NCBI GenBank assembly: GCA_026985075.1
Contig: JALSQX010000041.1
Coordinates: forward strand, 1-49,840
DNA from: Blastocatellia bacterium
GTDB lineage: Bacteria > Acidobacteriota > Blastocatellia > HR10 > J050
Length of the DNA stretch: 49,840 bases
Reading direction: 5' to 3'
Both the position numbers and the translations under genes were made by a program. Position 1 is the first letter of the stretch, and each line of letters opens with the position of its first letter. Positions 16-24,506 of the stretch are shown here, piece after piece. Below the pieces are notes generated by a model, which made no database searches, was not told the origin of the DNA, and saw only the letters and a list, made by a program, of their open reading frames with translations.

Positions 16-3000
16 GTCGCAATCCTCTCTGAAGCGAGTCCTGAATTCCCACGAATCCCCAAGGCCACGGGGTGATGAGGGAGGGAAAAGTCGCAATCCT
101 CTCTGAAGCGAGTCCTGAATTCCCACCGTCGCTTTGCTGACCGCCCTTACAGGGTGGGAGAGCGAAGGTCGCAATCCTCTCTGAAGCGAGTCCTGAATTC
201 CCACGAGACGCGGCTCACCGTTCGGTGGAGCCGTACAGGGCGGGTCGCAATCCTCTCTGAAGCGAGTCCTGAATTCCCACCTTCCGATAATGCTCTTTCG
301 TCGAAGTCCTACGTTCGGTCGCAATCCTCTCTGAAGCGAGTCCTGAATTCCCACCAAATTCCCCTAGCTCTCTAGAGAGCTAGGGGATTCTTAAGTCGCA
401 ATCCTCTCTGAAGCGAGTCCTGAATTCCCACATATGCGCCGGAGCTCCGTGAATTATACAACTAGTAGGCACGTCGCAATCCTCTCTGAAGCGAGTCCTG
501 AATTCCCACGGCAATCGTCTCTCTGCTTGCCACCCTGCAAGGGTGGGGTCGCAATCCTCTCTGAAGCGAGTCCTGAATTCCCACAGGATAATTGAGAACC
601 CGTCCCTCTCAATCAGGGAGTCGCAATCCTCTCTGAAGCGAGTCCTGAATTCCCACTCGAAGTCGATCCGCAGCTTGCCGCCGTGCTCGGCGACGGGTCG
701 CAATCCTCTCTGAAGCGAGTCCTGAATTCCCACGGTATGGTCTTGGGCCCGAAGCCGAATCTTGACGATTCGGGTCGCAATCCTCTCTGAAGCGAGTCCT
801 GAATTCCCACCCTAATCTAATCCCCCCACCGATGACGAATCGGTGGGTCGCAATCCTCTCTGAAGCGAGTCCTGAATTCCCACCCGCAGCGTTTCGCACA
901 CGGTCGGGTGCCGTCCTCGCCGTGTCGCAATCCTCTCTGAAGCGAGTCCTGAATTCCCACCGGGGAAGCCGGGAATGGCCGCCATTCCTATTCTGGTCGC
1001 AATCCTCTCTGAAGCGAGTCCTGAATTCCCACGTATCAGACGATAAACGGCGTTCCATTTCATGTATTGCCGGTCGCAATCCTCTCTGAAGCGAGTCCTG
1101 AATTCCCACACGAAAAACCACAATTATTCGAGAATTAGCGCGTCATGTCGCAATCCTCTCTGAAGCGAGTCCTGAATTCCCACAGTGTGGTCATTTTTGT
1201 GGCTACCATACGACAGAGAAAGTCGCAATCCTCTCTGAAGCGAGTCCTGAATTCCCACCAGTCTGCAACGATGGCAGCACGAGGGCCGCTTGACGGTCGC
1301 AATCCTCTCTGAAGCGAGTCCTGAATTCCCACACGGTTTAGGATTGTTTTTACGAGGATTGAGGAGAATTTTGTCGCAATCCTCTCTGAAGCGAGTCCTG
1401 AATTCCCACGGAAGGATCAACAAGCCGGTCCAATGGAGGAAATCGGTCGCAATCCTCTCTGAAGCGAGTCCTGAATTCCCACCTATCCTTGGACCAAAGC
1501 CTTCGCTCGACTCGGGCGAAGATGTCGCAATCCTCTCTGAAGCGAGTCCTGAATTCCCACATGCTGCAAAAATGGGAGCGCGAAGGCCGCTTGGACGCGG
1601 GTCGCAATCCTCTCTGAAGCGAGTCCTGAATTCCCACATCGAACGCTTGGACGGCTTGCCCGAGGACGAAAGGGCAGGTCGCAATCCTCTCTGAAGCGAG
1701 TCCTGAATTCCCACCAAAGTCTTGTCCACGATTGAGGAGATCGAGGAGGTAGGCGTCGCAATCCTCTCTGAAGCGAGTCCTGAATTCCCACCCGATCTTG
1801 AAGATCGGCTCCAGAACATTCTGGCCGATCGTCGCAATCCTCTCTGAAGCGAGTCCTGAATTCCCACGATAACCTCAAAGGTTTGCAACTTTGCATCTTT
1901 TTCTGTCGCAATCCTCTCTGAAGCGAGTCCTGAATTCCCACACGTTCGCTCGAACGCGAACGTTAAGCGCATTATCGAGGGTCGCAATCCTCTCTGAAGC
2001 GAGTCCTGAATTCCCACTTTGAATGACCTTCAAGACAGACTTCAGAACATCTTGGCGTCGCAATCCTCTCTGAAGCGAGTCCTGAATTCCCACGCTAGGG
2101 GATTTTTAATTTTTTGCAATCTTGCAAAAACCGTCGCAATCCTCTCTGAAGCGAGTCCTGAATTCCCACTCTTGGAGCAGGCCAACAAGCAGAGAGCAAT
2201 AGCCGGGAAGTCGCAATCCTCTCTGAAGCGAGTCCTGAATTCCCACTCTCCCAAGCTGAACAACTTCCATGGCCAGAGGGTATGGTCGCAATCCTCTCTG
2301 AAGCGAGTCCTGAATTCCCACTGTCGAGTCTCTTCTTACCGCTCTGATGCGATGGGAAAACGAAGTCGCAATCCTCTCTGAAGCGAGTCCTGAATTCCCA
2401 CGAGATGCAAGGGCGAGGTCGCTTCTTCGTCCATTCGGCTCCGTCGCAATCCTCTCTGAAGCGAGTCCTGAATTCCCACGCAAGGGGCGGTATTGGGGGC
2501 GAAGCCTAGGAGTTTAGATGTCGCAATCCTCTCTGAAGCGAGTCCTGAATTCCCACTGGAGTCACCGTCGTTGCCCATATGGACTCCTCAGTTACCGTCG
2601 CAATCCTCTCTGAAGCGAGTCCTGAATTCCCACTGGGGGAGCCGAACGGCTCCCCCGGACCCGAGCTAAGGCGGTCGCAATCCTCTCTGAAGCGAGTCCT
2701 GAATTCCCACTGTCGAGTCTCTTCTTACCGCTCTGATGCGATGGGAAAACGAAGTCGCAATCCTCTCTGAAGCGAGTCCTGAATTCCCACGCAGGCGTTG
2801 CAGAATTGGGAAAACGAAGGTCGACTCACGTGTCGCAATCCTCTCTGAAGCGAGTCCTGAATTCCCACACTCTATAACTAGGCAAGTAGGGGGGAGCCTT
2901 CGGCTCCGTCGCAATCCTCTCTGAAGCGAGTCCTGAATTCCCACGGTACGGAAATGACACAGGAAGAATTGAAGGAGCGGTTAGAGTCGCAATCCTCTCT

Positions 3001-6000
3001 GAAGCGAGTCCTGAATTCCCACTGAAAAAGAGGTGTTTGGGCATAGTTTACACAAGGATACGTCGCAATCCTCTCTGAAGCGAGTCCTGAATTCCCACAC
3101 AAAAAGTAACAACGTATGAGAATATGAGAATTAGAGGTCGCAATCCTCTCTGAAGCGAGTCCTGAATTCCCACGGATGAGGCGTAAGATCAAAGCTCCTA
3201 TTCCGCGAGGTCGCAATCCTCTCTGAAGCGAGTCCTGAATTCCCACGAACCCATTGGCGCAATATCCCACACAGGAGAACAAGCTATGGGTCGCAATCCT
3301 CTCTGAAGCGAGTCCTGAATTCCCACGCAAAATCAACAAGAGCGCGCTAGCCGATTTTGTTGGGTCGCAATCCTCTCTGAAGCGAGTCCTGAATTCCCAC
3401 GGTGGCCGGGTATATCATGGAACATTTATGCCAAATCTGTCGCAATCCTCTCTGAAGCGAGTCCTGAATTCCCACTCCAAAAGCCATATAGCTCTCACCT
3501 CCTTTGTCGATTTTCGTCGCAATCCTCTCTGAAGCGAGTCCTGAATTCCCACCAACCTCATTTTATTATTCTCTCAGGTTTTTAGGACTGAGCGTCGCAA
3601 TCCTCTCTGAAGCGAGTCCTGAATTCCCACTCTCTCTTCCCTTCCCTCATCCTACCACTATCTTACGTCGCAATCCTCTCTGAAGCGAGTCCTGAATTCC
3701 CACTATAACGAACAGTTTTGGATAAACATACCACAACACGAGTCGCAATCCTCTCTGAAGCGAGTCCTGAATTCCCACGCCATGTCAACGGCGACAGCTA
3801 ATACTACTGCCATCGTGGGTCGCAATCCTCTCTGAAGCGAGTCCTGAATTCCCACGCAAGGAATGATTCTTGGACCGAAACCCCGCTCAGTGGGTCGCAA
3901 TCCTCTCTGAAGCGAGTCCTGAATTCCCACATGGCGAACATCGAATATGATTATGATGAAGCCCGTCGGTCGCAATCCTCTCTGAAGCGAGTCCTGAATT
4001 CCCACGGTGCGGTCGTTGTATGCCCCCGAGCTGAAGGCGATGTGTCGCAATCCTCTCTGAAGCGAGTCCTGAATTCCCACGAGCAGTCTTGGGTGCGAAG
4101 CCCAAGAGCCTAGATGAGCGCGTCGCAATCCTCTCTGAAGCGAGTCCTGAATTCCCACGTCCTTTGTCTTCCAACTCATCGTTGGGGTGGTTCGGTCGCA
4201 ATCCTCTCTGAAGCGAGTCCTGAATTCCCACCCTCAACGCGTCCTTTGTCTTCCAACTCATCGTTGGGGTGGTCGCAATCCTCTCTGAAGCGAGTCCTGA
4301 ATTCCCACAAACTTGATATGCCAATCTTTGCCTACTGCTGTAGGTGTGGGTCGCAATCCTCTCTGAAGCGAGTCCTGAATTCCCACGCGCATGGGCGTTG
4401 TCCCGCACAACTTGCAAGTTGTGCGGGTCGCAATCCTCTCTGAAGCGAGTCCTGAATTCCCACGCGAGGCTCGACACGCTGCCCGAAGACGAAAGGGCAG
4501 GTCGCAATCCTCTCTGAAGCGAGTCCTGAATTCCCACATGAAAAAATGACGAGGGAAGAGCTTAAGGACAGATTGGCAGGTCGCAATCCTCTCTGAAGCG
4601 AGTCCTGAATTCCCACTCTTACCCCATCAAGATCAAGGAAACCCCATCATCCGGGGTGTCGCAATCCTCTCTGAAGCGAGTCCTGAATTCCCACACGTTT
4701 TGGTACGATGGGAAAGCGAGGGACGATTGACGGTCGCAATCCTCTCTGAAGCGAGTCCTGAATTCCCACGAAACGGCTTGCCGAATTGCCACCAGATGAG
4801 CGGGCAGCGGTTGGTCGCAATCCTCTCTGAAGCGAGTCCTGAATTCCCACCGATATGGAGTTTTTCCCTGAGCGAAGTGAAAATCTCAAGTCGCAATCCT
4901 CTCTGAAGCGAGTCCTGAATTCCCACGGGAGGCCGAGGGGAGACTGACAGCGCAGTTTGTCTTCCAGTGTCGCAATCCTCTCTGAAGCGAGTCCTGAATT
5001 CCCACTGAAAGGGGGACAACCATGACACAGGAAGAATTGAGGGAGTCGCAATCCTCTCTGAAGCGAGTCCTGAATTCCCACAGCCTAGACGAATCCGAAG
5101 ACGCCGTGGTGATGTACTTTGCGTCGCAATCCTCTCTGAAGCGAGTCCTGAATTCCCACTAATTTTTATCCCGGCTCCCGCCCCGGTGCCCGCCGGGTGC
5201 GGTCGCAATCCTCTCTGAAGCGAGTCCTGAATTCCCACACGATTGAAGAGCTGAATGAGAGACTTGAATCTCTTCCCGAGGGTCGCAATCCTCTCTGAAG
5301 CGAGTCCTGAATTCCCACCGGAGAAACTCGACGAGATCGCGTCGAGGAGATCCTCAGTCGCAATCCTCTCTGAAGCGAGTCCTGAATTCCCACGATTATA
5401 AGAGAGTTACTCGTTCAAGGCGCCGTCTTAGGGTCGCAATCCTCTCTGAAGCGAGTCCTGAATTCCCACGGATGTCGGCCTTGGTGCACCACCTGCCAAG
5501 GCCGCGGTCCTGTCGCAATCCTCTCTGAAGCGAGTCCTGAATTCCCACGAGACTTTCAACATCACCGTGCTCGCCGACGGCGAGCTGGTCGCAATCCTCT
5601 CTGAAGCGAGTCCTGAATTCCCACAGAAGCGCTTGGTCGATAGGTACGTTCGCAATTTCTGCGTCGCAATCCTCTCTGAAGCGAGTCCTGAATTCCCACG
5701 GTTTTTGGGAGATAACGCCGTCATCGGTGTTTCTCCCGGTCGCAATCCTCTCTGAAGCGAGTCCTGAATTCCCACGAGCACCCCAAGGCATCCGTACTCT
5801 TCCTCCCCTTGGCGTCGCAATCCTCTCTGAAGCGAGTCCTGAATTCCCACCCCATGGCGTGAGAAATCTGTACGCGCCCGAGTTGAAGGTCGCAATCCTC
5901 TCTGAAGCGAGTCCTGAATTCCCACAGTTGAAGCAACGCATCGAGATGCTGCCCGATGACGAGAGGGTCGCAATCCTCTCTGAAGCGAGTCCTGAATTCC

Positions 6001-7924
6001 CACATATGACGAAGGACGAGTTGAAGCAACGCATCGAGATGCTGGTCGCAATCCTCTCTGAAGCGAGTCCTGAATTCCCACGCTTCGGCAACCTCGAGGG
6101 GATGTGGGATAAAATCGCGGGGTCGCAATCCTCTCTGAAGCGAGTCCTGAATTCCCACGAACGCCTGGGGATCAAGTGGCGGCAGATCTACCGCTACATG
6201 TCGCAATCCTCTCTGAAGCGAGTCCTGAATTCCCACCTTCGTCGAGGTCGGGCGCCGCCGTCGTGCCGTAGCCGTCGCAATCCTCTCTGAAGCGAGTCCT
6301 GAATTCCCACGAACGCCTTCATCGACTCGTATCCGAAGGGTATAATACGGGTCGCAATCCTCTCTGAAGCGAGTCCTGAATTCCCACCCGTTCGCGACGT
6401 CGATCCCCACGTAGCGTCCCTGCTTCAGTCGCAATCCTCTCTGAAGCGAGTCCTGAATTCCCACTCATCGTCCAGAAGTCCGTTTACGCGAAGTATTCTG
6501 GGTCGCAATCCTCTCTGAAGCGAGTCCTGAATTCCCACCCTTGAGGCGTTGCCAAACGACGAAAGGGCGGCAATCGTCTCTGTCGCAATCCTCTCTGAAG
6601 CGAGTCCTGAATTCCCACAGGCCGCGGAGTCTCGACGATGGTCCAGATGCCATAGGTCGCAATCCTCTCTGAAGCGAGTCCTGAATTCCCACTGAAAGCA
6701 CGATTCAAGCAGCTTCCGCAAGACGAACAATCGGCTAGTCGCAATCCTCTCTGAAGCGAGTCCTGAATTCCCACCACCTCCTTTTGGATTTTACGCCTTC
6801 AATTATACTCAACGGTCGCAATCCTCTCTGAAGCGAGTCCTGAATTCCCACGAACATAAACTGACAGCAAGCTTTGTGTTCGATTTCGTGATAGTCGCAA
6901 TCCTCTCTGAAGCGAGTCCTGAATTCCCACGCTGTCGTTATTGACCGTACTTCAAAATATGGAGTACGAACATAAGTCGCAATCCTCTCTGAAGCGAGTC
7001 CTGAATTCCCACCCCATGCTGTGGCCAGGCGTGGAGCGAGCCCAGACCCGCGGTCGCAATCCTCTCTGAAGCGAGTCCTGAATTCCCACGGTTTGGGGGA
7101 GCAGAAGACTCCCCCATTTTTTTTGCCTGTCGCAATCCTCTCTGAAGCGAGTCCTGAATTCCCACAACTGATTAGCTTCCGCGATTCCGATTCTGGTTTG
7201 GGGGAGGTCGCAATCCTCTCTGAAGCGAGTCCTGAATTCCCACGCAAGAACTTCTCACCTCTCAAAGAGCCCAGTCCACGGTCGCAATCCTCTCTGAAGC
7301 GAGTCCTGAATTCCCACCCTGCAATATTCAATCTCCAAATCACGTTTACATTCAAGTCGCAATCCTCTCTGAAGCGAGTCCTGAATTCCCACTGAGAGAA
7401 TTAACATCATCTATCATTACAAGACGTGTACGTCGCAATCCTCTCTGAAGCGAGTCCTGAATTCCCACAAAAAGATTAGGACTATCACCAGCAACGGAAT
7501 TTGATTGTCGCAATCCTCTCTGAAGCGAGTCCTGAATTCCCACCGGAATCTCTATGCGCCGGAGCTGAAGGAATTGTACAACTGTCGCAATCCTCTCTGA
7601 AGCGAGTCCTGAATTCCCACACAGGAGGCAACTACTATGGCGAAGACGAAGCAAAAGGTCGCAATCCTCTCTGAAGCGAGTCCTGAATTCCCACCTTTTG
7701 CTCACGGCGTTGGTGCTATTTCTATTCATAGCACGTCGCAATCCTCTCTGAAGCGAGTCCTGAATTCCCACTCTTTCAGTTTGTGGTCGGTATCGTTTAC
7801 GCCTTGTTACGGTCGCAATCCTCTCTGAAGCGAGTCCTGAATTCCCACAGACGGGAGGTAGCTATGACCAAAGACGAATTGCAACAGGTCGCAATCCTCT
7901 CTGAAGCGAGTCCTGAATTCCCAC
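16..7924 (-). CRISPR. Type III CRISPR array, 104 repeats (runs off left edge)
   Basis: I counted 104 copies of a 37-nt repeat by eye, the first at 16-52 and the last at 7888-7924, with 103 spacers of 35-45 nt between them. The copies look identical; I saw no degenerate terminal repeat, and the 15 bases before position 16 look like the tail of another spacer, so the array continues to the left. On the plus strand the repeat begins GTCGCAATCC and ends GAATTCCCAC. On the minus strand it therefore ends GGATTGCGAC, which contains ATTGCGAC, the 8-nt crRNA 5' handle known from Thermus type III systems. This, together with cas genes on the minus strand and a leader at the right end, indicates transcription on the minus strand, with the newest spacer at 7849-7887. 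One spacer is duplicated (2322-2364 and 2711-2753). Many spacers encode pieces of the same protein families in plus-strand reading. Every open frame inside the array is an artefact of the repeat. Confidence 0.99.
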
Positions 7925-8130
7925 ATACCTCCGAGCTGAGTCTCTAAAATCAATCGCTTAGCGCCAGCCTGTGATACCCTACCCGAGGCGATCAAATTTC
8001 TCCTTGACAAACCCATGCCTCTTCCATCAGCTATCCTCTTCATCTCACTGAAAAACATCAGGTTATCCATTCTGTGATAACCTCCGCCAATATTCATACC
8101 TCATCATCAGGAAAAATGCAAGGATGAAAT
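7925..8130 (-). promoter_or_regulatory. CRISPR leader
   Basis: This is the comparatively AT-rich stretch directly next to the last repeat, between the array and cas2, on the side where minus-strand transcription would enter. It contains an inverted repeat at 8061-8082 (GGTTATC, 8-nt loop, GATAACC). A weak promoter-like pair reads on the minus strand near 8105-8130 (TTGCAT, 17 nt, TATGAA). The boundary at the right is approximate. A 96-codon open frame covers part of it but runs into the repeats and resembles no known protein, so I treat it as chance. Leader identity is inferred from position and composition. Confidence 0.7.
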
Positions 8131-8434
8131 GAATGAGTCGGCGACCGGGAGAAGCGTTCGACCAACCTGTGGGAACAATTCCACCTGGTCGAAGGCGTCG
8201 AGCCTCGGCGAGTTCTTCGGCCAACACATCCTGCGGCAAATCCACCTGTTTGAGGGCGCCGAGTCAACAGCGGAGAGGAAGACCAATCCGGTTCCGGCGC
8301 ATGATACCCCATGCACACACCTCGTCCGCGACGTCGCACCAGATGCCATCCAGCGCGACGCATTCTCGACAGGGCAACTCGCGGGCGACCGTCCCCGCTC
8401 TCCCCAGCCCCGACCACGGGCGGCACCCGCTCCC

Positions 8435-8550
8435 GATGAGCAGCCGGATGGGCGAGTCCGCATATGCCAGTCACAGAGTGCACCAATCGGCACGCTCGAT
8501 CGTGTCGCGCCATGATGAGCAGCCGGATGGGCGAGTCCGTACATACCAGA
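8435..8550. repeat. Direct repeats between leader and cas2
   Basis: A sequence of about 26 nt beginning GATGAGCAGCCGGATGGGCG occurs at 8435-8460 and again at 8514-8539. Just after the first copy, 8470-8499 carries TCACAGAGTGCACCAATCGG, which is nearly the same as two elements beyond cas1 (near 10344 and 10410). The rest of 8131-8641 holds only overlapping open frames in several frames with no recognisable protein, so I see no gene there. Confidence 0.6.
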
Positions 8551-9123: not shown

Positions 9124-10119
9124 TCAATGTTCAGCCACATAGGGGACGTACTCCTCGTTGAAGCTCACCGTGCGCGCCAGTCGCTCGGCCTGCCCCAGCA
9201 CGAGCCGGCGGAATGTGGTGCGATGCCCGGTGTGGCGGCTGACGAACTTGCGGCTCATCATCCGCTCGTACTCGCGGAGGAAGCGCTTCTTGCCCTCCTC
9301 GACCAGCCAGACGCCGCCATCGTCCAGCCGCCGGAAATCCCCCTCGGAGAGGACCTTGTTATTGAACAGGGTGAGTGCCAGCCGGTCAATCGTCGCGGCG
9401 CGGAATTCTTCGACGAGATCGAGCGCCAGACTGCACCGGCCATACTCCAGCCCGTGAAAGAACCCGATGTAGGGATCGAAGCCCACGGCGGTGACCACGC
9501 CGATGGCCTCGGCGGTGAGCAGCGTATAGCCGAATGAGAGCACGGCGTTGACCGGATCGCGTGGAGGCCGACGGGTCCGCTTCTGAAAGCGCATGGGGCC
9601 GGTGAACATGTGACCGAGAGTGTGAAAATAAACGGCCGCCGCATGTCCTTCCACGCCGCGAAGTCCATCCAGCGTCTCGGCGCGGGGCACCGAGAGCAGG
9701 GCGCGTTCCAGCTCGCGCAACTGGGCCTGGAAATCGACTTCCGGGTGGTTGCGACTGTAGCGAAGGATGACGCGCATGCTGCTGGTGATCTTTCCGGTCA
9801 CGATGTGCCGGGCGACGGTGAGCGGGAAATCGGGGTCCATGGCGCACTCGTACTGCTTCAGCCGAAGCGGCGCGTTTTTCGATTCGATGGCCGTCAAGCG
9901 ACCGCGGAGCTGACCGCGCCCGCTGAGGAAGGTCGTGTCGATGCCCATCTGCAACAGCGCATTGACCGCTCCGGTGGTCAGATGGACGCGGCCGAGAACG
10001 ACCACGCGGTCGATTTTGATGAGGGGAATCTCCCTGGTCTCATCGCCGTTTTTGACGATGAGGCGCTCGTTCTCCCGCCGCACGGTGGCCCCTTGTTCGG
10101 TGAGATATAACGTCGTCAT
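9124..10119 (-). CDS. cas1: CRISPR integrase Cas1
   Basis: The product has 331 residues, a normal Cas1 length. The N-terminal beta domain begins MTTLYLTEQGATVRRENERL, and the helical catalytic domain follows. The metal-binding residues are recognisable: Glu in LRGVEGHAAAVYF, His in YIGFFHGLEYGR, and the acidic pair in ALDLVEEFR. It would insert spacers into the array together with Cas2. There is no fused reverse transcriptase domain, so spacer acquisition directly from RNA is not suggested by this protein. It is the only cas1 in the window and lies between the CARF genes and cas2. Confidence 0.97.
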   Translation of the reverse strand: MTTLYLTEQGATVRRENERLIVKNGDETREIPLIKIDRVVVLGRVHLTTGAVNALLQMGIDTTFLSGRGQLRGRLTAIESKNAPLRLKQYECAMDPDFPLTVARHIVTGKITSSMRVILRYSRNHPEVDFQAQLRELERALLSVPRAETLDGLRGVEGHAAAVYFHTLGHMFTGPMRFQKRTRRPPRDPVNAVLSFGYTLLTAEAIGVVTAVGFDPYIGFFHGLEYGRCSLALDLVEEFRAATIDRLALTLFNNKVLSEGDFRRLDDGGVWLVEEGKKRFLREYERMMSRKFVSRHTGHRTTFRRLVLGQAERLARTVSFNEEYVPYVAEH

Positions 10120-10690: not shown

Positions 10691-12004
10691 TCACGATTCC
10701 GGAGTCGCGCGTTTTGCGTCCGGATTCTGGTCGGCCCCGATGATCTGAATGCGCGTTTTATCCAGAGCCAGGCCATATCGTTTGGAGCCGTATGCGCCGG
10801 TGGTGACGATGTTCAACGATGGAGATAGCCCGGCTTCCTTGATCCGGCGATTGAGCGCGCTGAGGTAGCTGTGGAAATTCTCCATATCCAGGATCGGCTT
10901 ACCCTTCTTCTTCTTCTCGGCCAACCACTCGTCGAAGTTGAGCGCCGACCCGTGAAATGTCCGGCGATAGATCTGGAGGAAGCGCTGTTCATCGATCTCG
11001 CGGAAGGTCTGGAAACAGTCGGTGCATGGGCCACAGACGGGCAACTCGGGCCGGACACAATGATCGGTCTTGATTTCGGCGTAATAGGTGTAGAGGGCGA
11101 GCCGCATGCCGGTGAGCGGGAGGAACGTCTCGCCGAACCGCACCTGGCGGTGCCCAAGGTCGATGATGAGCGATTCGGGTCTGGTTTGCGCCAGATCGAG
11201 TTCGTGCTGGGCCAACTGGATGGTGCGCTCCACACTCGCGTCCAGTCGCGTGAACCGTCGGCCAAGGATATCGCGGAGGCGAATGAAGGGAATCTCGGCC
11301 AATTCGATGCGAGCTTGTTTGGCGTCGGCGGTGGCCGGTTGACCATCCCGGAGGATGCCGATGACCTTCTTGCGCCGGGTGGGGAAGAAGAAGTTGGGAT
11401 TGCTCTCGTATTCTTCGGGCACGAGCACGTGAGAGAGACTATCCTGGCGGCGACCGTAGAGAGTGAGCGCCAGCGCCATATAGGCGGACATCGTCTTACG
11501 ACCACCGGCCAGCGAGCAATGGAGCGCCGTCCGGGGATCGGCGGTGAGCTGTTTGATGAAGCCGAACAGTTGTTGGGCCAGCGCCCGATTATCGGCGACC
11601 GTCCGGATATCATCGAGCGGGGTGGCCGTCAGAGAGGAATCGGATGATCGCCGGCGACTGGACGCGCGTCGCCGTCTGCCGGATCGCCGATCGTGGCTCG
11701 CGGCTCGCTTCAACGTGATGATGTGCTGCTCATCGAAGGCGATGGACGCGGGATTGATGCCGTACTCGCGACAGAAGGCGAAGAACTGTCCGGTGGACGC
11801 ATCCAGGAGTGCCTGGCGAGCGATCTCGGCGCCGCGACGAGTGGTGAGGATGTAGATCTCGGAGATGGGCACGGGCGGTCGCCGCTGGATCATGAGGGCA
11901 TAGAGCGTCTCGGTGATGATCTGCGGCGTCTGTCCGGCCACGGCCACCAGGATGTGACGATACGTGCTCTGGGATGTCTTCCGCCCTCGTTTCATGATAT
12001 TCAC
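10691..12004 (-). CDS. CARF-domain protein, Cas_NE0113 / 'ring nuclease Csm6' family
   Basis: The 437-residue product starts with a CARF-type Rossmann strand, HILVAVAGQTPQIITETLYA (residues 18-37), and has the family signature HCSLAGGRKTMSAYMALALT near 162-181, then RRQDSLSHVLVPEEYE and FFFPTRRKK. These are the hallmarks of the NE0113 family, which binds or degrades cyclic oligoadenylate in type III systems. An Arg/Ser-rich insert (about 104-126) interrupts the CARF domain. The C-terminal half carries a CGPCTDCF cysteine cluster. In this locus it would sense or remove the second messenger made by Cas10. Whether it acts as an off-switch or an effector cannot be read from the sequence; I see no HEPN Rx4-6H motif. 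Start could be Met1 or Met4. Confidence 0.85.
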   Translation of the reverse strand: MNIMKRGRKTSQSTYRHILVAVAGQTPQIITETLYALMIQRRPPVPISEIYILTTRRGAEIARQALLDASTGQFFAFCREYGINPASIAFDEQHIITLKRAASHDRRSGRRRRASSRRRSSDSSLTATPLDDIRTVADNRALAQQLFGFIKQLTADPRTALHCSLAGGRKTMSAYMALALTLYGRRQDSLSHVLVPEEYESNPNFFFPTRRKKVIGILRDGQPATADAKQARIELAEIPFIRLRDILGRRFTRLDASVERTIQLAQHELDLAQTRPESLIIDLGHRQVRFGETFLPLTGMRLALYTYYAEIKTDHCVRPELPVCGPCTDCFQTFREIDEQRFLQIYRRTFHGSALNFDEWLAEKKKKGKPILDMENFHSYLSALNRRIKEAGLSPSLNIVTTGAYGSKRYGLALDKTRIQIIGADQNPDAKRATPES

Positions 12005-12060
12005 ACCGAATGGCTCACTCTATGTCTCTCAGCCTGACCTTCCTCTATTCCCATTGAAAA

Positions 12061-12559: not shown

Positions 12560-12823
12560 TCAAAACGGATCATGATCGAAGATGGTGACCTCGCCGGTGA
12601 CCGGCGACGAGTAGATGAGCCGCCGCGCCTTGCCGTGCAGAGCGTGAGCGACGCGCAGATAGAGCCAGATGGGCGCTTGTCCGGTGAGGATGATGGTGTG
12701 CCCTTCGCCGGCCAGCTCCAGAGCGCGGCGTTCGTATTCGGCGAGATCGCTGAGCTTGGCCGCGTCGGTGTAAGATGTGCCGAGATCAATGGTCACCGGT
12801 TGTTGAGTCTGCTCGTCGGTCAT
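12560..12823 (-). CDS. csx3: Possible internally started free Csx3-like protein
   Basis: Met441 of the fusion lies at 12823, at the start of the Csx3-like domain (MTDEQTQQPVTIDLGTSY). On the minus strand GGAGG sits 8 nt before this ATG, an almost ideal ribosome binding site at the domain boundary. The same DNA could therefore make an 87-residue stand-alone Csx3, a normal length for that family, in addition to the fusion. This is inferred from the site alone. Confidence 0.5.
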   Translation of the reverse strand: MTDEQTQQPVTIDLGTSYTDAAKLSDLAEYERRALELAGEGHTIILTGQAPIWLYLRVAHALHGKARRLIYSSPVTGEVTIFDHDPF

Positions 12824-14143
12824 CGATGAATCCTCCGCGGTCGAATCCTGAGCGCGCGAATCATCATTCAAAGAGCCCGTGTCGCTCAATGGGCGAGGCG
12901 ATTCTCCCGACGACTCCGGCCAGAGGGCATCCAGACCGGCCAGAATCTCGTCCACGGCGTTGACCAGCGCACTGGCCGATGCCGGTTTGAGACGCATGCC
13001 GGCGTGATCGACATCGTTGCGCGCTTCGGAGATCTTGTTCCAAAGGGTACCCAAGGCGCGAGTATCGACTTCGGGAGCGAGTTGAGCGACGGCGTCGTCG
13101 GGGCGTTCATCCCGCCAGGGCCTGCGCTTGTTCCGCGGCCGTTGCTGCCAGCCGAGGTAGTTCAACACCCGCTCGGCTTCCTTGCGCGAGAAATCGGCCA
13201 GCGGATCTTGGTAGCCGAGCATGAGGAGCGTCCAGGTCACCACCCATTCGCGCACCAGAGTGAGCGCTTGAGCATAGAGGCCGCGCTCGGCGTACCAGCG
13301 GATGATGGCCCGCTGGACATCGAGGTTCCTGGCGTCGGGCGCAGTGGCGAAAGGGATGAACTCGGCTTGAAGCAGGGGCGCGACGAGGGCGAACGGTTTG
13401 GCCCATTGTTCGATCTCCTGGCGGGCGGCGTCGGTGAACAGGTTGGTCAACTGCGCGGCCTTCTCCATCACTTCGCGGGGACGGATGAGGAGGAGCGCCT
13501 GAGAGAGCTCCCGGGAGCGCTGGCCGATGTTTTTGATGATCGTGGGCGACGGGCCTCCGGCGCGTTCCCGGTAGGCGCGATCCTGAATCTCTTTGAGCAA
13601 TCGACCGAGGTCGGCGGCGCGCCCGCTCTGCTGGAAGAGATAGACGGCGGCCAGCCAATCGAGCAGGCTCAGGAAGGGCGAGAGGTCGAAGACCGGCGCG
13701 CGATCTTGATCGTCTCTGGCCTCGAAAGCGCCATAGGTGACGGCCTGCAGACGGATGCGCTTGGTGACCTGCAGGTAGGCCATGGCCAGAAAGATGATGA
13801 ACGGGAGCGAGCGATAGCCATGCGTGATATCGAAGACGACGTCTTCGCCTTCATCGACGCTCTCGACGACGCGATCGAAGATGGTCCACAGCTCGTCCGG
13901 CGTCCGCCCCCAGGGAATTTCCACCGGCTGGGGCGCGATTTTCCCGGCCAGCCGGTCGCAGAGCTTCGTCCAGTACATGTCTCTGGATTCCGGCGTGACG
14001 AACACGGTGAGCATGTCGGGCGTGAAGAATTCGTAGAGGGCGACGGGGAACAAATCGGACTCCACGGCGGTGCCGCGATAGACGTATGTCACTGGCCGGT
14101 AATTCCCCGTGCCGATGAACGTGATGGCTTTCATCTGGGTCAC
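12560..14143 (-). CDS. Csx1-type CARF-HEPN ribonuclease fused to a Csx3-like domain
   Basis: There are three parts in 527 residues. Residues 1-170 form a CARF domain of the TM1812/Csx2 type, with start KAITFIGTGNYRPVTYVYRG and signature DITHGYRSLP at 105-114. Residues 170-410 are helical and end in a HEPN RNase motif, R375-NDVD-H380 (Rx4H). After an acidic, low-complexity linker (411-440), residues 441-527 resemble Csx3: LTGQAPIWLYLRVAHALHG, then a short Tyr-Ser-Ser-Pro segment and a final FDHDPF. Csx3 proteins bind and degrade cyclic tetra-adenylate, so this would join an activated nuclease to its own off-switch. The Csx3 motif usually written YDPR is YSSP here, so ring cleavage may be impaired. 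The ORF lies 70 nt downstream of hicA. CARF and HEPN assignment is firm; the Csx3 call rests on motif order and spacing. Confidence 0.85.
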   Translation of the reverse strand: MTQMKAITFIGTGNYRPVTYVYRGTAVESDLFPVALYEFFTPDMLTVFVTPESRDMYWTKLCDRLAGKIAPQPVEIPWGRTPDELWTIFDRVVESVDEGEDVVFDITHGYRSLPFIIFLAMAYLQVTKRIRLQAVTYGAFEARDDQDRAPVFDLSPFLSLLDWLAAVYLFQQSGRAADLGRLLKEIQDRAYRERAGGPSPTIIKNIGQRSRELSQALLLIRPREVMEKAAQLTNLFTDAARQEIEQWAKPFALVAPLLQAEFIPFATAPDARNLDVQRAIIRWYAERGLYAQALTLVREWVVTWTLLMLGYQDPLADFSRKEAERVLNYLGWQQRPRNKRRPWRDERPDDAVAQLAPEVDTRALGTLWNKISEARNDVDHAGMRLKPASASALVNAVDEILAGLDALWPESSGESPRPLSDTGSLNDDSRAQDSTAEDSSMTDEQTQQPVTIDLGTSYTDAAKLSDLAEYERRALELAGEGHTIILTGQAPIWLYLRVAHALHGKARRLIYSSPVTGEVTIFDHDPF

Positions 14144-14765: not shown

Positions 14766-15812
14766 TCACCTCTCAGGCCATGGTTGGAATCCGGTGTAGT
14801 AATCGCGCTTCACGCCGCGATCCAGCGCCTGCTCATAGCTCTTATCGCTATGCCGGGTGAGCTCGCAGACCAGAATCCTCCCTTCGTCGTCCTGGAAGTA
14901 GAAGATGCGCTCATCCCGGCGGCCCTTGGGAAACACCAGACAATCGGAGTTTCGCACTTGATCGGAGCCGGTTCGTCGGAGTTCGGCCAGGCGAAGTTTG
15001 TTGAGTACGCGATCGAAGGATTGGCGTACGCTGGGTTCCAATGACCGATAGGTCGATCGGGCTTTTTCCGAGAGGAAGATGGGAATGGCCTGAGCCTCGG
15101 CTTCTTTCTGCCGAAAAGCCTCATAGAAGGCTTCGCCGGCGGGAGAAAGAAACGTGAAGCCTGCTTCTTCGGCGAGCAGCAGGCGAATTTCGCCGGGAAG
15201 TCCACGGAGTCGGCGATCGACTTCTGGAGTTGTGTGTACTTGGCTGACCCACTCGAAGAATTCTTCATAATCGGCCAGGAGCGAGTAATCCCAACTGATG
15301 GGCGTCGGCGGCATCTCGATGATATCGCGGAAGGCCTCGTGAATGTAATAGACGGGCGCGTCGAACAGAAGACCGACCAGCGTGGCATAAGCGATTTCCG
15401 CTTTGAAACCGCCGGTGGCATTGATGAGGACTGGACGCTGTTGCGCGCGTTCTTTTCGAATCTGCTCGATGAGTGTAGCCACCAGCGAGCGCAGGCCGCG
15501 GAGTTTGAAGCGGCTCTCGGCATAGGTGAGATCGCGTACTTCGCGCAGTTCGACGCTGTAGTGCTGCCGCGTATAATGCCGCCGCAGGGCTTCGGCGCAC
15601 TGCCGCCCCTCGTCGGTCTGTGAGTGGAGAAAGACGATGCGATCTCCGGTCTGGAGGAGTCGTCCGAGCGAATTGGTCTCGGCGCTGGCCTTCTCCGACT
15701 CGGTCTCTTTCAAATACTGATCGAGTTGCCGGTCGGTGACCTCCTCGACGCGGAGGATGCGCCTGGCGTTCGAGAGCAACGATGTTCCCACGGTGACGAT
15801 GATCGTCCGCAT
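14766..15812 (-). CDS. CARF-RelE fusion, Cami1-like CRISPR mRNA interferase
   Basis: The N-terminal part is a CARF domain of the APE2256 type: first strand MRTIIVTVGTSLLSNARRIL, and the ligand-loop signature VLINATGGFKAEIAYATLVG at 128-147. A winged-helix-like linker (about 190-245) follows. The last 100 residues look like a RelE/ParE-fold toxin: SVRQSFDRVLNKLRLAELRR, then ERIFYFQDDEGRILVCELTR and HSDKSYEQALDRG. This is the architecture of Cami1, which cleaves ribosome-bound mRNA when its CARF domain binds cyclic oligoadenylate. It begins 27 nt after cmr6 and is probably co-transcribed with it. The CARF call is firm. The RelE call rests on the pattern of beta strands and basic residues and would need structural comparison. 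Confidence 0.8.
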   Translation of the reverse strand: MRTIIVTVGTSLLSNARRILRVEEVTDRQLDQYLKETESEKASAETNSLGRLLQTGDRIVFLHSQTDEGRQCAEALRRHYTRQHYSVELREVRDLTYAESRFKLRGLRSLVATLIEQIRKERAQQRPVLINATGGFKAEIAYATLVGLLFDAPVYYIHEAFRDIIEMPPTPISWDYSLLADYEEFFEWVSQVHTTPEVDRRLRGLPGEIRLLLAEEAGFTFLSPAGEAFYEAFRQKEAEAQAIPIFLSEKARSTYRSLEPSVRQSFDRVLNKLRLAELRRTGSDQVRNSDCLVFPKGRRDERIFYFQDDEGRILVCELTRHSDKSYEQALDRGVKRDYYTGFQPWPER

Positions 15813-15839: not shown

Positions 15840-17177
15840 TCACTCAGTCGAGTCAAACCGAGCGACGAATTCCTGGAGTTCTTTCACCCATTCTTTATCT
15901 TTCCAATCCTTCAATTTCTTCGCCTGTCGAAGCTTCTCAAGAATTGCCTCAGCCAGTATTCGTCGTGCTTCTTCATCCGAAAGTTTCTTCCATGCTTCAT
16001 AATACTGGCGGATTTGACTGGCCACCTGATTGACCGGCATAAGTTGCACGGCCCGGATTTCAGGCACCTTTTCTACAGGAGACAGGGACTTCGACTGACT
16101 CGCAACTGGCGAAGCGCCCACATCCTGTTTTGCATGTGCGGAGGAACCGGGGATGACTTGCGTGAAGTACCCATATCCCGCTACAGTCTTTGCCCCCACG
16201 CCCATTTCTGTTAATCCCGCTGTCAACCAGTTCTGCGCCTGTTGTGCTAACTTTACGTCCTTGGAAGCAACAGCAAAGAGGAACTCACTACCTGGCGCGA
16301 TGGTGAGGAAGAAAACAGGGATCGGATTCAGGTAGTCGGCAGGAGGTGTGTCACCGCCTTGGTAATATTGACTGTAGTGAGGGTTCATCACGTCCAAGTC
16401 CAGTTTCAGGTTGGCTGAGTTGGCAGGTATAGCGTCAAAAAAGATGACCTTACCCGTACCGGCGATCGTCCCGAACACATCGCGGATGGGTTTGACTTTT
16501 TCCTCAACAGTTGAGAGATTCATCTGACGTACGGGAACTGACGAAGGAACGGCCTCATCACACTGCAAGTCATTGAGAAGTTTCGAGCGACGATTTTCAT
16601 CAGGCTCGTTGATGTATGCTTCTAGCTTCTGGATAGGCGAGGGTTGTCTGCTTCTCTCGCGTGCTGCTACTTCATCTGGCGACAGAGCAAGCACACCTAA
16701 CTGTTCTGCTACTTGCCACAGGGCATACGATCGTGCCAAGCCTTTTAACGCGCTGCCGGGGATGATGGGGAATCCGTAAGTGCGGTGCAAGTGGATGCTG
16801 GTTTCCAACACACTTTCCGCCCCTAACCCGATAATGACGCGGCCCTCGGCGCGCATCAGAAACTGCCTTACTATATAATTGTGCTGCTGGCAGTCGTTGA
16901 GCATGGTCTCCCATCGAGCTTTGTGAGCACTGATGAGGCGGGACAGATCACCTTGATTGAATTCACGAACGCCCCGTCGCTCCCTGGTTGGTTTCGCTAA
17001 TTCCCAACTGTCCCGATCACACTTTAACAGCCGTTCTGTCCGTAAGCCGTAATTGAGGCACCGTTCCCCGCGCACTTCTGCTAGAACACCAGTATCCTGC
17101 GGGAGAGGATAGATCTCTCGCCGCTCAGGAACTCGGCCACCCCGCCTTCGTTGCCGTGAGTGCCTACCTCGTGGCAT
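15840..17177 (-). CDS. cmr6: Type III-B Cmr complex subunit Cmr6, with C-terminal extension
   Basis: This is a RAMP/Cas7-like backbone subunit that caps the Cmr filament. Recognisable segments are YGFPIIPGSALKGLARSYAL (the RAMP insertion loop), RDVFGTIAGTGKVIFFDAIP, LDLDVMNPHYSQYY, and the Gly-rich VGAKTVAGYGYF near the end of the RAMP fold. At 445 residues it is longer than usual: after the glycine loop come about 100 extra residues, a linker of Ser/Lys/Pro followed by a charged, helical tail (ARRILAEAILEKLRQAKKLK). The basic N-terminus (MPRGRHSRQRRRGG) may bind RNA. It starts 3 nt after the cmr5 stop. Confidence 0.95.
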   Translation of the reverse strand: MPRGRHSRQRRRGGRVPERREIYPLPQDTGVLAEVRGERCLNYGLRTERLLKCDRDSWELAKPTRERRGVREFNQGDLSRLISAHKARWETMLNDCQQHNYIVRQFLMRAEGRVIIGLGAESVLETSIHLHRTYGFPIIPGSALKGLARSYALWQVAEQLGVLALSPDEVAARERSRQPSPIQKLEAYINEPDENRRSKLLNDLQCDEAVPSSVPVRQMNLSTVEEKVKPIRDVFGTIAGTGKVIFFDAIPANSANLKLDLDVMNPHYSQYYQGGDTPPADYLNPIPVFFLTIAPGSEFLFAVASKDVKLAQQAQNWLTAGLTEMGVGAKTVAGYGYFTQVIPGSSAHAKQDVGASPVASQSKSLSPVEKVPEIRAVQLMPVNQVASQIRQYYEAWKKLSDEEARRILAEAILEKLRQAKKLKDWKDKEWVKELQEFVARFDSTE

Positions 17178-17180
17178 AGT

Positions 17181-17603
17181 TCATCCCTCCTCCGTTGGTA
17201 GTTCCGCTTCAGCAAAGCGCTTAAGCCACATCAAATAGGCCAGCGCTTCAACTGTCGCGCGACGATAAGCAGCGCTGTCGTTGTTAAGCACCCAACGAAG
17301 CAGGTCCTGATTGCCCGCGCTGGGCGCGAGCTGACTCATCGTCCATACGGATAGATGTTTGAACACCTCACCACTTGCTTGAGCATCAGCCCCACGCTTC
17401 TGTGGTGCTTCTTTAAGCTTCGCTTTAGAAACCAAAAACGCCAGCGTCTGTCCCAGACCGTTGGTCAGCACCAACATTGGGACTTTCCTAGCAAGCGAGC
17501 CATATTTCTTTTTGAACTCATCAGAGCGATTGATGACGCTCTGAATGTCATCCCAGGCTTGTTTTGCTCTCTTCTGGTCTAAAGTCTGTTGAAAGCTTGG
17601 CAT
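17181..17603 (-). CDS. cmr5: Type III-B Cmr small subunit Cmr5
   Basis: This is a small all-helical protein of 140 residues, MPSFQQTLDQKRAKQAWDDI, with the Cmr5 landmarks KVPMLVLTNGLGQTLAFLVS (inner helix) and YRRATVEALAYLMWLKRFAE (C-terminal helix). It forms the minor filament of the Cmr complex next to Cmr4. I prefer the start at 17603 because AAGGA lies just before it; an in-frame Met at 17618 would add five residues. It is separated from cmr4 by about 580 nt of toxin-antitoxin debris, although cmr4 and cmr5 are usually adjacent. Confidence 0.95.
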   Translation of the reverse strand: MPSFQQTLDQKRAKQAWDDIQSVINRSDEFKKKYGSLARKVPMLVLTNGLGQTLAFLVSKAKLKEAPQKRGADAQASGEVFKHLSVWTMSQLAPSAGNQDLLRWVLNNDSAAYRRATVEALAYLMWLKRFAEAELPTEEG

Positions 17604-17609
17604 ATTCCT

Positions 17610-17706
17610 TCCCTCCATCTTGGCGACGAATCACGCAGCCGGAGAGGACTGAGATGTAGCCACCCTCTCGGCCGGTTTCAAGCAAACAATAGATCCAGCC
17701 ATGACA
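17610..17706 (-). pseudogene. HicB-like N-terminal remnant
   Basis: Read on the minus strand from 17706, the DNA encodes CHGWIYCLLETGREGGYISV followed by LSGCVIRR. This parallels the HicB start found at 14674 (VYLEPAEEGGYIVSAPALPG and then a Cys-Val pair). No good start codon precedes it, and it runs into the cmr5 start. I read it as a fossil of a second hicB gene. The similarity is short, so the call is tentative. Confidence 0.4.
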
Positions 17707-17752
17707 TTTGTTTTCCGATCCATTCCCCGTAGAATCTCATCAGAGTCTCTGT

Positions 17753-17902
17753 TCACAGCCAATTGTTTCCTTCTTCTACCAGTTCCTCATGAACGGTCTG
17801 GGAGATAATCAGCTGCTGGAAGGCGAGCTGAAGAGAATGCAAGCCCTCCGCGCACGCCAAGGTGATAAGAGGTGATGTATTGCGAATGGTCTTCCCCCTC
17901 AT
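17753..17902 (-). pseudogene. Truncated PIN-domain (DUF3368) toxin
   Basis: The frame starts at the TAATG overlap with the UPF0175 stop and encodes 49 residues: MRGKTIRNTSPLITLACAEG, then QLIISQTVHEELVEEGNNWL and a TGA. N-T-S-P-L and VHEELVEEG are the opening motifs of DUF3368 PIN toxins, which normally have about 150 residues and partner with UPF0175 antitoxins. The first Asp of the PIN site, usually D/N-T-S/T-P, is Asn here. Everything after the first third is missing, so the toxin is broken. Confidence 0.75.
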
Positions 17903-18165
17903 TACTCACTCTGTCCTCCCAAGACCTTATGATCAGCTTCCACGTCCTCTCGGCGATAATGGAACCAAGGGATCTCATAGCCAGCCAGCAATTGCGGAAG
18001 ATCCCAGAGATTGATGTCCAGGAGTTCCGCCGCTTTTGCCCGGGAGATCAATCCTCGGCGCACCAGGTTGAGCACGAGGGCCTCGCGAGCTTCCGCTTGA
18101 ACCCTCTCCTTGGAGCCAAGCAGATTCATGATCTCGTCTGGGATTTGAACGGAAAGTGTTTTCAT
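17902..18165 (-). CDS. UPF0175-family antitoxin
   Basis: The 87-residue product MKTLSVQIPDEIMNLLGSKE continues with RRGLISRAKAAELLDINLWD, the ribbon-helix-like start plus helix-turn-helix of UPF0175 (PF03683), and ends in the typical IPWFHYRREDVEAD. These proteins are antitoxins of DUF3368 PIN toxins. Its partner follows with a 1-nt TAATG overlap but is truncated, leaving the antitoxin as an orphan. The gene begins 23 nt after cmr4 in the same direction and so splits the cmr operon between cmr4 and cmr5. It may still be made from the cmr transcript and could act as a transcription regulator. Confidence 0.88.
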   Translation of the reverse strand: MKTLSVQIPDEIMNLLGSKERVQAEAREALVLNLVRRGLISRAKAAELLDINLWDLPQLLAGYEIPWFHYRREDVEADHKVLGGQSE

Positions 18166-18188
18166 GACCTATCCTCTCCCTCTTCAGT

Positions 18189-19100
18189 TTAGACACCAAC
18201 GCGCACTTTCACAAAGCCACGCCCGACGGTGCTATCGCCACCCAATTGCAGCCGCTCGCCGTCAACGCAGTCTTTGACGAATTTTATTACTTCCGCCACC
18301 CTATCGCTCGCTTGTTTCCAGTCCTCTGGTAGCTCGTCATCCCTGACTCGTGGCTTGCTGGCAAAGAGCGATGCATAAAGCAGAGTGTCGGAAGGCAAAT
18401 GCTCCTCTGACCACAGTGCACCGCGAGCGACGGTTTTCGTTTCGTCATCCAGGCGAATGCGGCTGATGACTTCGGTTGAAAATTGTGTGAAATCGCGGAA
18501 GGCGTTTTCGGGCAAGATGACCAGACGCTGTGGCAGGGCCTGACGCCAATAGTCATATTCATTGCCCGACGGTAAGGCATTGTCCTTGAGCCAATTTGCG
18601 ATCTCTTGCACGCTGTTATCCTGCCGAGCCACAAACGCAAACTCTTCTAAGACAACTTTGTCGTTACTGACGAGAACACTGCCGGGCGCAACCAGAGCTG
18701 CATCATCTCCTGTTGGGTGTGTCTCCGTCCAGTTCACAGTGACGTCAGCCATCTGTGCATCGCGCTTGAAGCGAGCTAGCACATCCTTGCTCGTCACCCA
18801 TGCAAACACACCCATGAGCGATCGCACAGGAAAGAGCAGAATCCGCGCGTCACCGACCGACAGCGCTCCGGCGTGGTCGCTGGAGGCTTGCGTGTCGGGT
18901 CCGAAGACGATTTTGACCTTCTGAGTATCGTTGCCCGCGGCTTCCCGTAGACAGCCCTTGAGCCCTGACGCTTGCACGATGGGATAGCCCGTTGTGCGCT
19001 CGCGCTGGATGGGCAAGTCCACGATGCCTAAGCTCGTGCCGCTACCCGCATGCAGCGGTGTTTCAACATACAAATACAGCATGGCTGCTTTCTTGAACAT
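18189..19100 (-). CDS. cmr4: Type III-B Cmr backbone subunit and target RNase Cmr4 (Cas7)
   Basis: The product is 303 residues with the Cmr4 N-terminal block LYLYVETPLHAGSGTSLGIV followed by DLPIQRERTTGYPIVQASGL and KGCLRE. The Asp in this loop (residue 28) corresponds to the catalytic Asp that cuts target RNA at 6-nt intervals. The glycine-rich C-terminus reads LQLGGDSTVGRGFV. Several copies make up the backbone of the complex along the crRNA. The gene starts 16 nt after cmr3. Nothing looks degenerate, so RNA cleavage activity is expected. Confidence 0.97.
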   Translation of the reverse strand: MFKKAAMLYLYVETPLHAGSGTSLGIVDLPIQRERTTGYPIVQASGLKGCLREAAGNDTQKVKIVFGPDTQASSDHAGALSVGDARILLFPVRSLMGVFAWVTSKDVLARFKRDAQMADVTVNWTETHPTGDDAALVAPGSVLVSNDKVVLEEFAFVARQDNSVQEIANWLKDNALPSGNEYDYWRQALPQRLVILPENAFRDFTQFSTEVISRIRLDDETKTVARGALWSEEHLPSDTLLYASLFASKPRVRDDELPEDWKQASDRVAEVIKFVKDCVDGERLQLGGDSTVGRGFVKVRVGV

Positions 19101-19116
19101 AATTTATCTCCTCCAT

Positions 19117-20247
19117 TCAGGCATAATCCCAACTGGTTACTATCGCGCCACCAAAACCAATCTGACCAAAATCACCCTCGCTGTCAGGCGTTTCAGTAAA
19201 AGGTTTGTTGCTTGTAGTGACGCTTCCATCACTGTCAAAAAAGAAAACACTCCCAGCAGGAATAAATCGGCGCATGGTCTTCTGGAAGTTGCCGTGATTG
19301 CTACGCTGTCTGTCATCGGCAAATGCGCCACCGATGGACTGGGCGCGTGGTACAGCAGCCGCAACAAGGCGGACATTCGCGCCATTAAAGAACTGTCCCC
19401 AGTCGTCGTCCCGAGGCTTCCATCCGCCGGAAAACCATGCGGGCGTCAGCAACACGATCTTGAACCGTTTTGGCAGCGGATTTTGCGATGATACAGACGG
19501 AAGCGGCGATTGCAGCACCTCGTAAGTCGCTGTCCTCGCATCACCTCCGACTTGCAGGAAGCCTCTCTGTGGAGTGAAGACACCAATGCCATCCACTTCC
19601 AGCACAAAACCGATGCCCTCCCGCAGACGTAGAAACTCCATCGTGTAAAGCATCCCCTCCTCCGTGCTACGCCGCTTGTAGTCTAGCGCAATCCCCAAAC
19701 GCGGCTCACGCACGAACAAGTCACTTTCGGGTGTGACGCAGAAATCAGTCTGCCCGGCCAGATACTTTTTGAATTCGTCCTCCACCAGCCAGCCGTGTAC
19801 TTCTTTAATCGACTCATGCGTGCGCACCCACAGCGGTCGCACAGTGGCAGGAGAGTTGTCATGGCAAGGCGAATTGCGCAAGGGTTTGGCAACAACAAAG
19901 CGATCGTTCACTTTCACGACATCGGCGGGCAGTGGGAAATATCGTGTGATGCTACCATCGTCATTGCGCTTGGCCACAAACGGACCGCGTAGTTGAAGTT
20001 GTCCGTAGCCACTGCCGACACCGCCGATCCTTCGGATCAACCCCTGCGCGGCCGGAGTCGCGGCATAGGCGTAATCATGTGGACTCACGCCACTGTCGAA
20101 AAGAACTTTCGAGCGAATGACACCTTGCATCGTAAACGGTGTGGGTGGGAAGAGGCTTTTAGCACGATGGTCTTCGCCCGCTACGAACGGCTTGCCGTCC
20201 CGGAACAGCAGCACATCATTTGGTTCAATGAACACTTGCCACATCAT
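19117..20247 (-). CDS. cmr3: Type III-B Cmr subunit Cmr3 (Cas5-like)
   Basis: This is a Cas5-group RAMP protein of 376 residues, MMWQVFIEPNDVLLFRDGKP followed by FPPTPFTMQGVIRSKVL, both characteristic of Cmr3. The glycine-rich loop near the C-terminus reads FGQIGFGGAIVTSWDYA. It binds the 5' handle of the crRNA and contacts Cas10. The start overlaps the cas10 stop by 4 nt (20244-20247), which implies translational coupling. Confidence 0.96.
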   Translation of the reverse strand: MMWQVFIEPNDVLLFRDGKPFVAGEDHRAKSLFPPTPFTMQGVIRSKVLFDSGVSPHDYAYAATPAAQGLIRRIGGVGSGYGQLQLRGPFVAKRNDDGSITRYFPLPADVVKVNDRFVVAKPLRNSPCHDNSPATVRPLWVRTHESIKEVHGWLVEDEFKKYLAGQTDFCVTPESDLFVREPRLGIALDYKRRSTEEGMLYTMEFLRLREGIGFVLEVDGIGVFTPQRGFLQVGGDARTATYEVLQSPLPSVSSQNPLPKRFKIVLLTPAWFSGGWKPRDDDWGQFFNGANVRLVAAAVPRAQSIGGAFADDRQRSNHGNFQKTMRRFIPAGSVFFFDSDGSVTTSNKPFTETPDSEGDFGQIGFGGAIVTSWDYA

Positions 20248-24301: not shown

Positions 24302-24506
24302 GCCGACCTCCATATCATGATGGGTTTTAGCACACCCACCGGTTCACTTCACTCACAACAACCTTGAAACAACCTTGTTTTTCTTCGCCGATCTCAGGTT
24401 CATCGGCACTCAGGCCACCGAGCAGTGCGCCCATCCTCTTCGCCGAGGCGAAGAGAACCTCCCGACGCTACTCCCTCCTCCCCCGCTCTCTCCGCACCCA
24501 AACGCA

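Follow-up and report, generated by a model that had tools for sequence, protein, structure and literature searches.

The type III-B locus

The stretch of DNA analysed here (the window, 49,840 nucleotides, nt) is the start of contig C41 (JALSQX010000041.1) of a 5.2-Mb draft genome of a Blastocatellia bacterium. It opens with an array of clustered regularly interspaced short palindromic repeats (CRISPR), many of whose spacers (35-45 nt long) encode pieces of one small protein, and this spacer family is the subject of the present analysis. The array belongs to a type III-B system, since Cas10/Cmr2 and Cmr1, 3, 4, 5 and 6 are encoded in a single locus, all on the minus strand, and the array is accompanied by adaptation genes (Cas1, and a Cas2-like open reading frame, ORF, recognised by eye). 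The locus comprises the following features, the protein assignments coming from Pfam/NCBIfam unless otherwise indicated:

16..7924, minus strand: type III-B CRISPR array, 104 identical 37-nt repeats and 103 complete spacers
7925..8093, minus strand: probable leader side of the array, as judged from its position between the array and the cas genes and from repeat decay at the opposite end, on contig C63
8642..8935, minus strand: Cas2-like ORF, 97 amino acids (MPIKRIMFYVISYDIVDDKRR...), named by eye
9124..10119, minus strand: Cas1, 331 amino acids, without a reverse transcriptase (RT) domain
10691..12004, minus strand: Csm6/NE0113-type CARF protein
12560..14143, minus strand: TM1812/DxTHG CARF protein with a C-terminal Csx3 ring-nuclease domain
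14766..15812, minus strand: APE2256-type CARF protein
15840..24313, minus strand: Cmr6, Cmr5, Cmr4, Cmr3, Cas10/Cmr2 and Cmr1

The product of 12560-14143 (minus strand, 527 amino acids), in which the TM1812/DxTHG CARF region is joined to a C-terminal Csx3/Crn3 ring-nuclease domain, is an apparent fusion of a sensor and its off-switch.

Another 63 spacers, separated by the same repeat, are found on contig C63, where the repeats of the far end are degenerate. C41 and C63 might be parts of one broken array. The exact III-B repeat has no copy in GTDB contigs, hence there is no sister array for comparison. Some spacers are duplicated. For instance, a three-spacer block is present twice in C63 (c63_50-52 and c63_55-57), and single spacers are duplicated elsewhere, including 2322-2364 and 2711-2753 of the window, which suggests recombination between repeats. 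A sequence starting CTAGTACTTTACCACAGTG interrupts the III-B array and the type I-B array of the same genome at contig ends (C63:1-126, minus strand; C4:96260-96385, plus strand), and a third copy is located at C66:88251 (plus strand). This sequence appears to be one end of an insertion element present in two CRISPR arrays.

A family of spacers encoding one protein

In the III-B arrays, 60 of the 166 spacers (39 of 103 in the window and 21 of 63 on C63) encode, on the plus strand, pieces of one protein. All six frames of every spacer (three per strand) were scored against a consensus that was itself built from the spacers. With a score of at least 28, 60 sense and 2 antisense spacers are obtained where about one is expected by chance; with a BLOSUM62 score of at least 30, there are 57 plus-strand and 2 minus-strand spacers, compared with 0.4 per shuffled set. 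The window alone contributes 39 plus-strand members and none on the minus strand, in line with the sense orientation stated in the original prediction, and the sense bias of the III-B arrays corresponds to a binomial P of about 2e-15 when unique spacers are counted. A profile made from the residue counts of window spacers only was then scored on the other arrays, and recovers family members in both C63 and C4. At a score of at least 18 it finds 20 sense and 2 antisense spacers among the 63 of C63, and 0.0 in dinucleotide shuffles; in this held-out test, the residues of the other arrays were kept out of the training, but the register was not fully independent of them, having come from the alignment of all arrays.

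The original prediction listed 19 spacers as tiling an N-terminus of about 40 residues. All 19 lie where they were placed, encode the peptides given for them and fit one register, two of them being identical copies. However, the family is not limited to an N-terminus: about 21 additional members in the window cover residues 22-95 and the stop codon, and the whole protein of about 95 residues is represented. The members are scattered through both contigs. The family spacers of the window, together with two candidates below the cut-off, are (all plus strand):

2945..2985: start segment MTQEELKERL
4538..4579: start segment MTREELKDRLA
5006..5044: AGGGGG, then MTQEELR
6004..6044: MTKDELKQRIEML, exact 26-nt overlap with 5926-5966
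7849..7887: leader-proximal spacer, GGGAGG, then MTKDELQQ (score 25)
5239..5281: TIEELNERLESLPE
5926..5966: LKQRIEMLPDDER
1638..1677: IERLDGLPEDERA, 29 nt in common with a spacer of the I-B array
4464..4500: ARLDTLPEDERA
4770..4813: KRLAELPPDERAAV
6539..6581: LEALPNDERAAIVS
6693..6737: KARFKQLPQDEQSA
510..547: AIVSLLATLQGW
127..167: VALLTALTGWESE
2322..2364: VESLLTALMRWENE
2711..2753: identical copy of spacer 2322-2364, the pair being one observation
6931..6975: LSLLTVLQNMEYEH
1259..1295: SLQRWQHEGRLT
1561..1600: MLQKWEREGRLDA
2791..2831: QALQNWENEGRLT
4695..4732: VLVRWESEGRLT
4927..4968: EAEGRLTAQFVFQ
6852..6893: EHKLTASFVFDFVI
4159..4194: SFVFQLIVGVV
4232..4271: LNASFVFQLIVGV, 31 nt identical with the adjacent spacer 4159-4194
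7772..7811: FQFVVGIVYALL
5394..5432: IIRELLVQGAVL
2480..2519: QGAVLGAKPRSLD
3856..3893: QGMILGPKPRSV
734..773: GMVLGPKPNLDDS
4081..4121: AVLGAKPKSLDER
1483..1523: ILGPKPSLDSGED
6619..6655: RPRSLDDGPDAI
5082..5122: SLDESEDAVVMYF
7695..7734: weak member (sp101), FAHGVGAISIHS, score 28
1333..1372: weak, doubtful member (sp18), possibly a chance match, score 28
5851..5888: HGVRNLYAPELK
4006..4043: VRSLYAPELKAM
7544..7583: RNLYAPELKELYN
432..472: YAPELRELYN, then the stop codon
2869..2907: LYN, stop codon and, 7 nt further on, a GC-rich UUCG hairpin; 19 nt in common with an I-B family spacer
1792..1830: possible divergent member, DLEDRLQNILAD, score 24, resembling spacer 2018-2056

The gap-free alignment of the spacers begins at M1 and ends with the stop codon, a length of about 95 residues. 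With all arrays pooled, each residue is covered by 4-17 spacers, coverage being thinnest at residues 53-55 and 72-86, and the approximate consensus is MTxEELKERLEELPEDERAAVVSLLTALQRWENEGRLTASFVFQFVVGIVRALLMQGAILGPKPRSLDDGADAIVGIFAHGVRNLYAPELKALYN. The segment ERFNVLAEAMIKRWSSFADSY, read from the overlapping spacers c63_61 and c63_62, was dropped from it, as other spacers join KPRSLDDG to DAIVGIFAHG. Several spacers include a Shine-Dalgarno-like motif followed by ATG, spacer 2869-2907 runs past the stop codon into the terminator-like hairpin, and exact DNA overlaps between spacers link neighbouring segments of the protein.

The spacers derive from many homologues. Overlapping members differ at codon positions 1, 2 and 3 in 38%, 25% and 62% of cases, respectively, their mean amino-acid identity (61%) is higher than their mean DNA identity (56%), and 13 mutually overlapping members are all different, which gives at least 13 distinct alleles. 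These three observations point to at least 13 homologues under constraint at the protein level. The leader-proximal spacer can be included in the family: although its score is under the cut-off, its peptide RREVAMTKDELQQ and its ribosome-binding site and ATG fit the start segment. This spacer is in agreement with the idea that the conflict is recent, but members throughout both contigs indicate that it has been long-lived rather than only recent.

Among the 104 III-B spacers outside the family, 21 form strong hairpins with a perfect stem of 7 bp or more, where about 2 would be expected, and some of these are followed by T-runs. Examples are 355-394, 2094-2132, 2634-2673, 4387-4426 and 7090-7128 in the window, and c63_16, c63_20, c63_25, c63_42 and c63_43; a hairpin pair, GTGGGAC...GTCCCAC followed by CAGTTTGCAAACTG, recurs among them. 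Part of these hairpin spacers may come from terminators of the target gene or of its neighbours.

Three arrays of one cell

The same genome contains two other relevant arrays. On contig C4, an array of 265 repeats directly follows cas1 and cas2 of a type I-B locus (cas8b, cas7, cas3); a type III-D module (Csx10, Csx7 and a split-looking Cas10) is present in the same cluster (C4:56386-96385). Family members number 17 in the I-B array, of which 8 are sense and 9 antisense. Of 19 5' flanks of I-B protospacers that could be deduced from spacer overlaps alone, 16 show CCN, and three of these 16 belong to family spacers. This protospacer adjacent motif (PAM) indicates PAM-guided acquisition from DNA by the I-B system, and its occurrence with family spacers that the target gene exists as DNA. 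A target made only of RNA, such as an RNA phage or a viroid-like agent, was rejected because both strands of the gene are matched by I-B family spacers with the CCN motif.

The third array is found on contig C44, beside an 803-amino-acid fusion of RT and Cas1, a CARF protein and a SAVED protein:

C44:20001-40000, 9621-12032, minus strand: RT-Cas1 fusion, within this stretch of C44
C44:20001-40000, 12144-12437, minus strand: cas2-like ORF, adaptation gene near RT-Cas1
C44:20001-40000, about 3127-8532: RT-Cas1-linked array, the fusion's own array

None of the 69 spacers of this array belongs to the family above chance. The family share is thus 37% in the III-B arrays, 6% in the I-B array and 0% in the RT-Cas1-linked array. 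The III-B share is 5.8 times that of I-B, and the strand ratios of these two (60:2 and 8:9) differ with a Fisher P of 5e-6. The III-B locus itself is not an RT-Cas1 system, its Cas1 (9124-10119) being devoid of RT and the sole RVT_1 match of the genome being that on C44. In the three C44 repeats closest to RT-Cas1 the first 10 nt are changed to AAGGGAGAAG or CAGGGAGAAG instead of GTCGCAATCC, which would alter the crRNA (CRISPR RNA) handle.

Search for the target gene

Different databases were searched for a relative of the 95-residue protein, and none was found in Pfam, PHROGs or PDB. Consensus or mosaic profiles detected no homologue in phage and plasmid records, array DNA gave no match with phages and only chance-level matches with plasmids, and four scans of IMG/VR, as well as GTDB contigs, yielded no relative. 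The same was true of samples of the host lineage (its order, 396 genomes of the phylum and 162 of the class), in which the weak relatives were chance on inspection. Weak matches on G382 and G151 were read by eye as a membrane protein and a ferredoxin. With respect to self-targeting, the host genome, which is 98.7% complete, has no copy outside the arrays, and weak matches on C10 and C104 did not hold. The profile search that accompanied the original prediction, directed at phage, plasmid and host proteins, therefore found no common protein, an outcome named there as speaking against the proposal. However, the shuffled-spacer check proposed with it gave counts far below the real one and, together with the held-out test, establishes that the family itself is real.

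Guide direction and origin of the strand bias

Read as its reverse complement, the III-B repeat terminates in ATTGCGAC, the sequence described as the 5' handle of Thermus type III systems (PMC8157118), and repeats decay at the end away from the cas genes, on C63. These features suggest that the III-B array is transcribed from right to left. The guides would thus be the reverse complement of the plus-strand spacers and antisense to the mRNA, in agreement with the original prediction; crRNAs produced in this direction would begin with AUUGCGAC.

The III-B arrays are probably a selected record of repeated attacks by a diverse group of mobile DNA elements with one short, expressed gene in common; these elements are most likely phages. 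Spacers would be captured from invader DNA by ordinary Cas1-Cas2, but the Cmr/Cas10 complex would act in time only with guides that pair with an abundant or early mRNA; cells with sense-strand spacers from the target gene would survive, and the array would fill with such spacers. In Thermus without RT, unselected spacers come from both strands, while those of survivors are almost all transcript-complementary and concentrated in a narrow early region (PMC7515739), and type III arrays in general prefer the coding strand (PMC8482600). The III-B arrays show the same combination, a strong transcript-complementary bias (60:2) within one gene of 95 codons. The I-B array, which has the same target and no strand bias, serves as an internal control, its 8:9 ratio being only a proxy for unselected two-strand uptake. 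Early or high expression of the target gene, with survival selection as the cause, would account for the bias.

Some observations weigh against this explanation. The target has no sequenced representative in which expression timing or selection could be checked. Strand selection accounts for at most a factor of 2 of the 5.8-fold excess over I-B, so that the remainder needs selection for the target transcript, an acquisition hotspot or both. In addition, some adjacent family members derive from a single copy of the gene (4159-4194 and 4232-4271; 5926-5966 and 6004-6044), which hints at a hotspot besides selection.

An acquisition hotspot is the strongest alternative, a tentative one that we consider clearly less probable than selection. 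The gene would lie where the DNA has a free end, or on a small element present in many copies, its DNA would be over-sampled, and antisense spacers would later be filtered out in III-B only. The spacer pairs from single gene copies fit this explanation, and so does the I-B array, in which 6% of the spacers, without strand bias, come from a 290-nt gene, more than expected for one gene of a typical phage. However, the III-B share over I-B exceeds what strand filtering alone can give, and no second dominant target family was found among the remaining III-B spacers, though the over-represented hairpin spacers may derive from sequences flanking the target gene. Because selection and a hotspot may operate together, the probabilities assigned to them overlap.

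RNA-templated acquisition is unlikely. The C44 RT-Cas1 would act in trans and copy an abundant mRNA into the III-B array, so that the sense bias would arise at acquisition. The genome does encode RT-Cas1 and its cas2-like ORF, the first 19 nt of the RT-Cas1-linked repeat are those of the III-B repeat, and the III-B sense bias is extreme. However, the fusion's own array has no family spacer among 69 where III-B has 60 sense ones among 166, and the III-B locus has a Cas1 of its own. Spacers 7090-7128 and c63_33 extend beyond terminator-like T-runs, two III-B family spacers are antisense, and RT-Cas1 systems are reported to acquire spacers in either orientation (PMC5576922). The corresponding view of the III-B array, in which RT-Cas1 acting in trans copied a single dominant transcript from an element still to be discovered, so that the array would be a record of expression rather than a survivor-selected DNA record, appears slightly more doubtful still.

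Coincidence can practically be dismissed: the short peptides were matched by eye across many frames, with no more than about 12 residues per match, and the first consensus came from the very spacers that were scored, but this reading is refuted by the shuffle and held-out tests, by the scarcity of minus-strand matches, by the codon-position pattern and by the exact DNA overlaps that chain the segments.

Comparison with known systems

The kind of process described here is known. As in the type III response of Thermus thermophilus to phage phiFa, the type III system lacks an RT and the spacers come from a narrow region and are nearly all transcript-complementary; the strand and region bias of that system was shown to stem from survival selection (PMC7515739). 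However, that study followed a laboratory infection with a known phage and its early region, whereas here a natural array is directed against a single 95-residue gene, with at least 13 homologues, that is absent from the databases searched. The bias has the same direction as the coding-strand preference surveyed in type III arrays (for instance, 88% in Moraxella III-B; PMC8482600), but it reaches 97% within one gene family and is accompanied by an unbiased I-B array of the same cell as a control.

The RT-Cas1 III-B repertoire of Arthrospira is likewise large and its source absent from databases (PMC5513706). While the enigmatic array of Arthrospira is RT-linked, in this bacterium the plain III-B array carries the family and the RT-linked array does not, and the source yields a readable protein. 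In Marinomonas mediterranea, III-B and I-F systems, targeting RNA and DNA, are similarly directed against the same invaders in one cell (PMC5576922), but the III-B module contains RT-Cas1 instead of a plain Cas1. Spacer matching in virioplankton also showed that certain viral genes are targeted far more than others (PMC6401485); those were known genes in pooled communities, whereas here an uncharacterised protein family dominates the array of one organism. To judge from a limited search of the literature, what is new is the focus of the spacers on a single gene, the rebuilding of a whole unknown protein from them and the comparison of three arrays.

Meaning for the biology of the system

The immune memories of this bacterium make the complete protein of an unseen mobile element readable, with its start, its stop, its conserved residues and at least 13 variants, and the reconstructed protein can be used as a probe for the element. 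Guides against this gene evidently bring an advantage against many relatives, and the gene is thus a candidate for an essential or early function. The plain Cas1 III-B, RT-Cas1-linked and type I-B arrays, each with adaptation genes of its own, have recorded this one gene very differently. Thus, whether type III strand bias comes from acquisition or from selection, and what RT-Cas1 samples, become testable in one organism.

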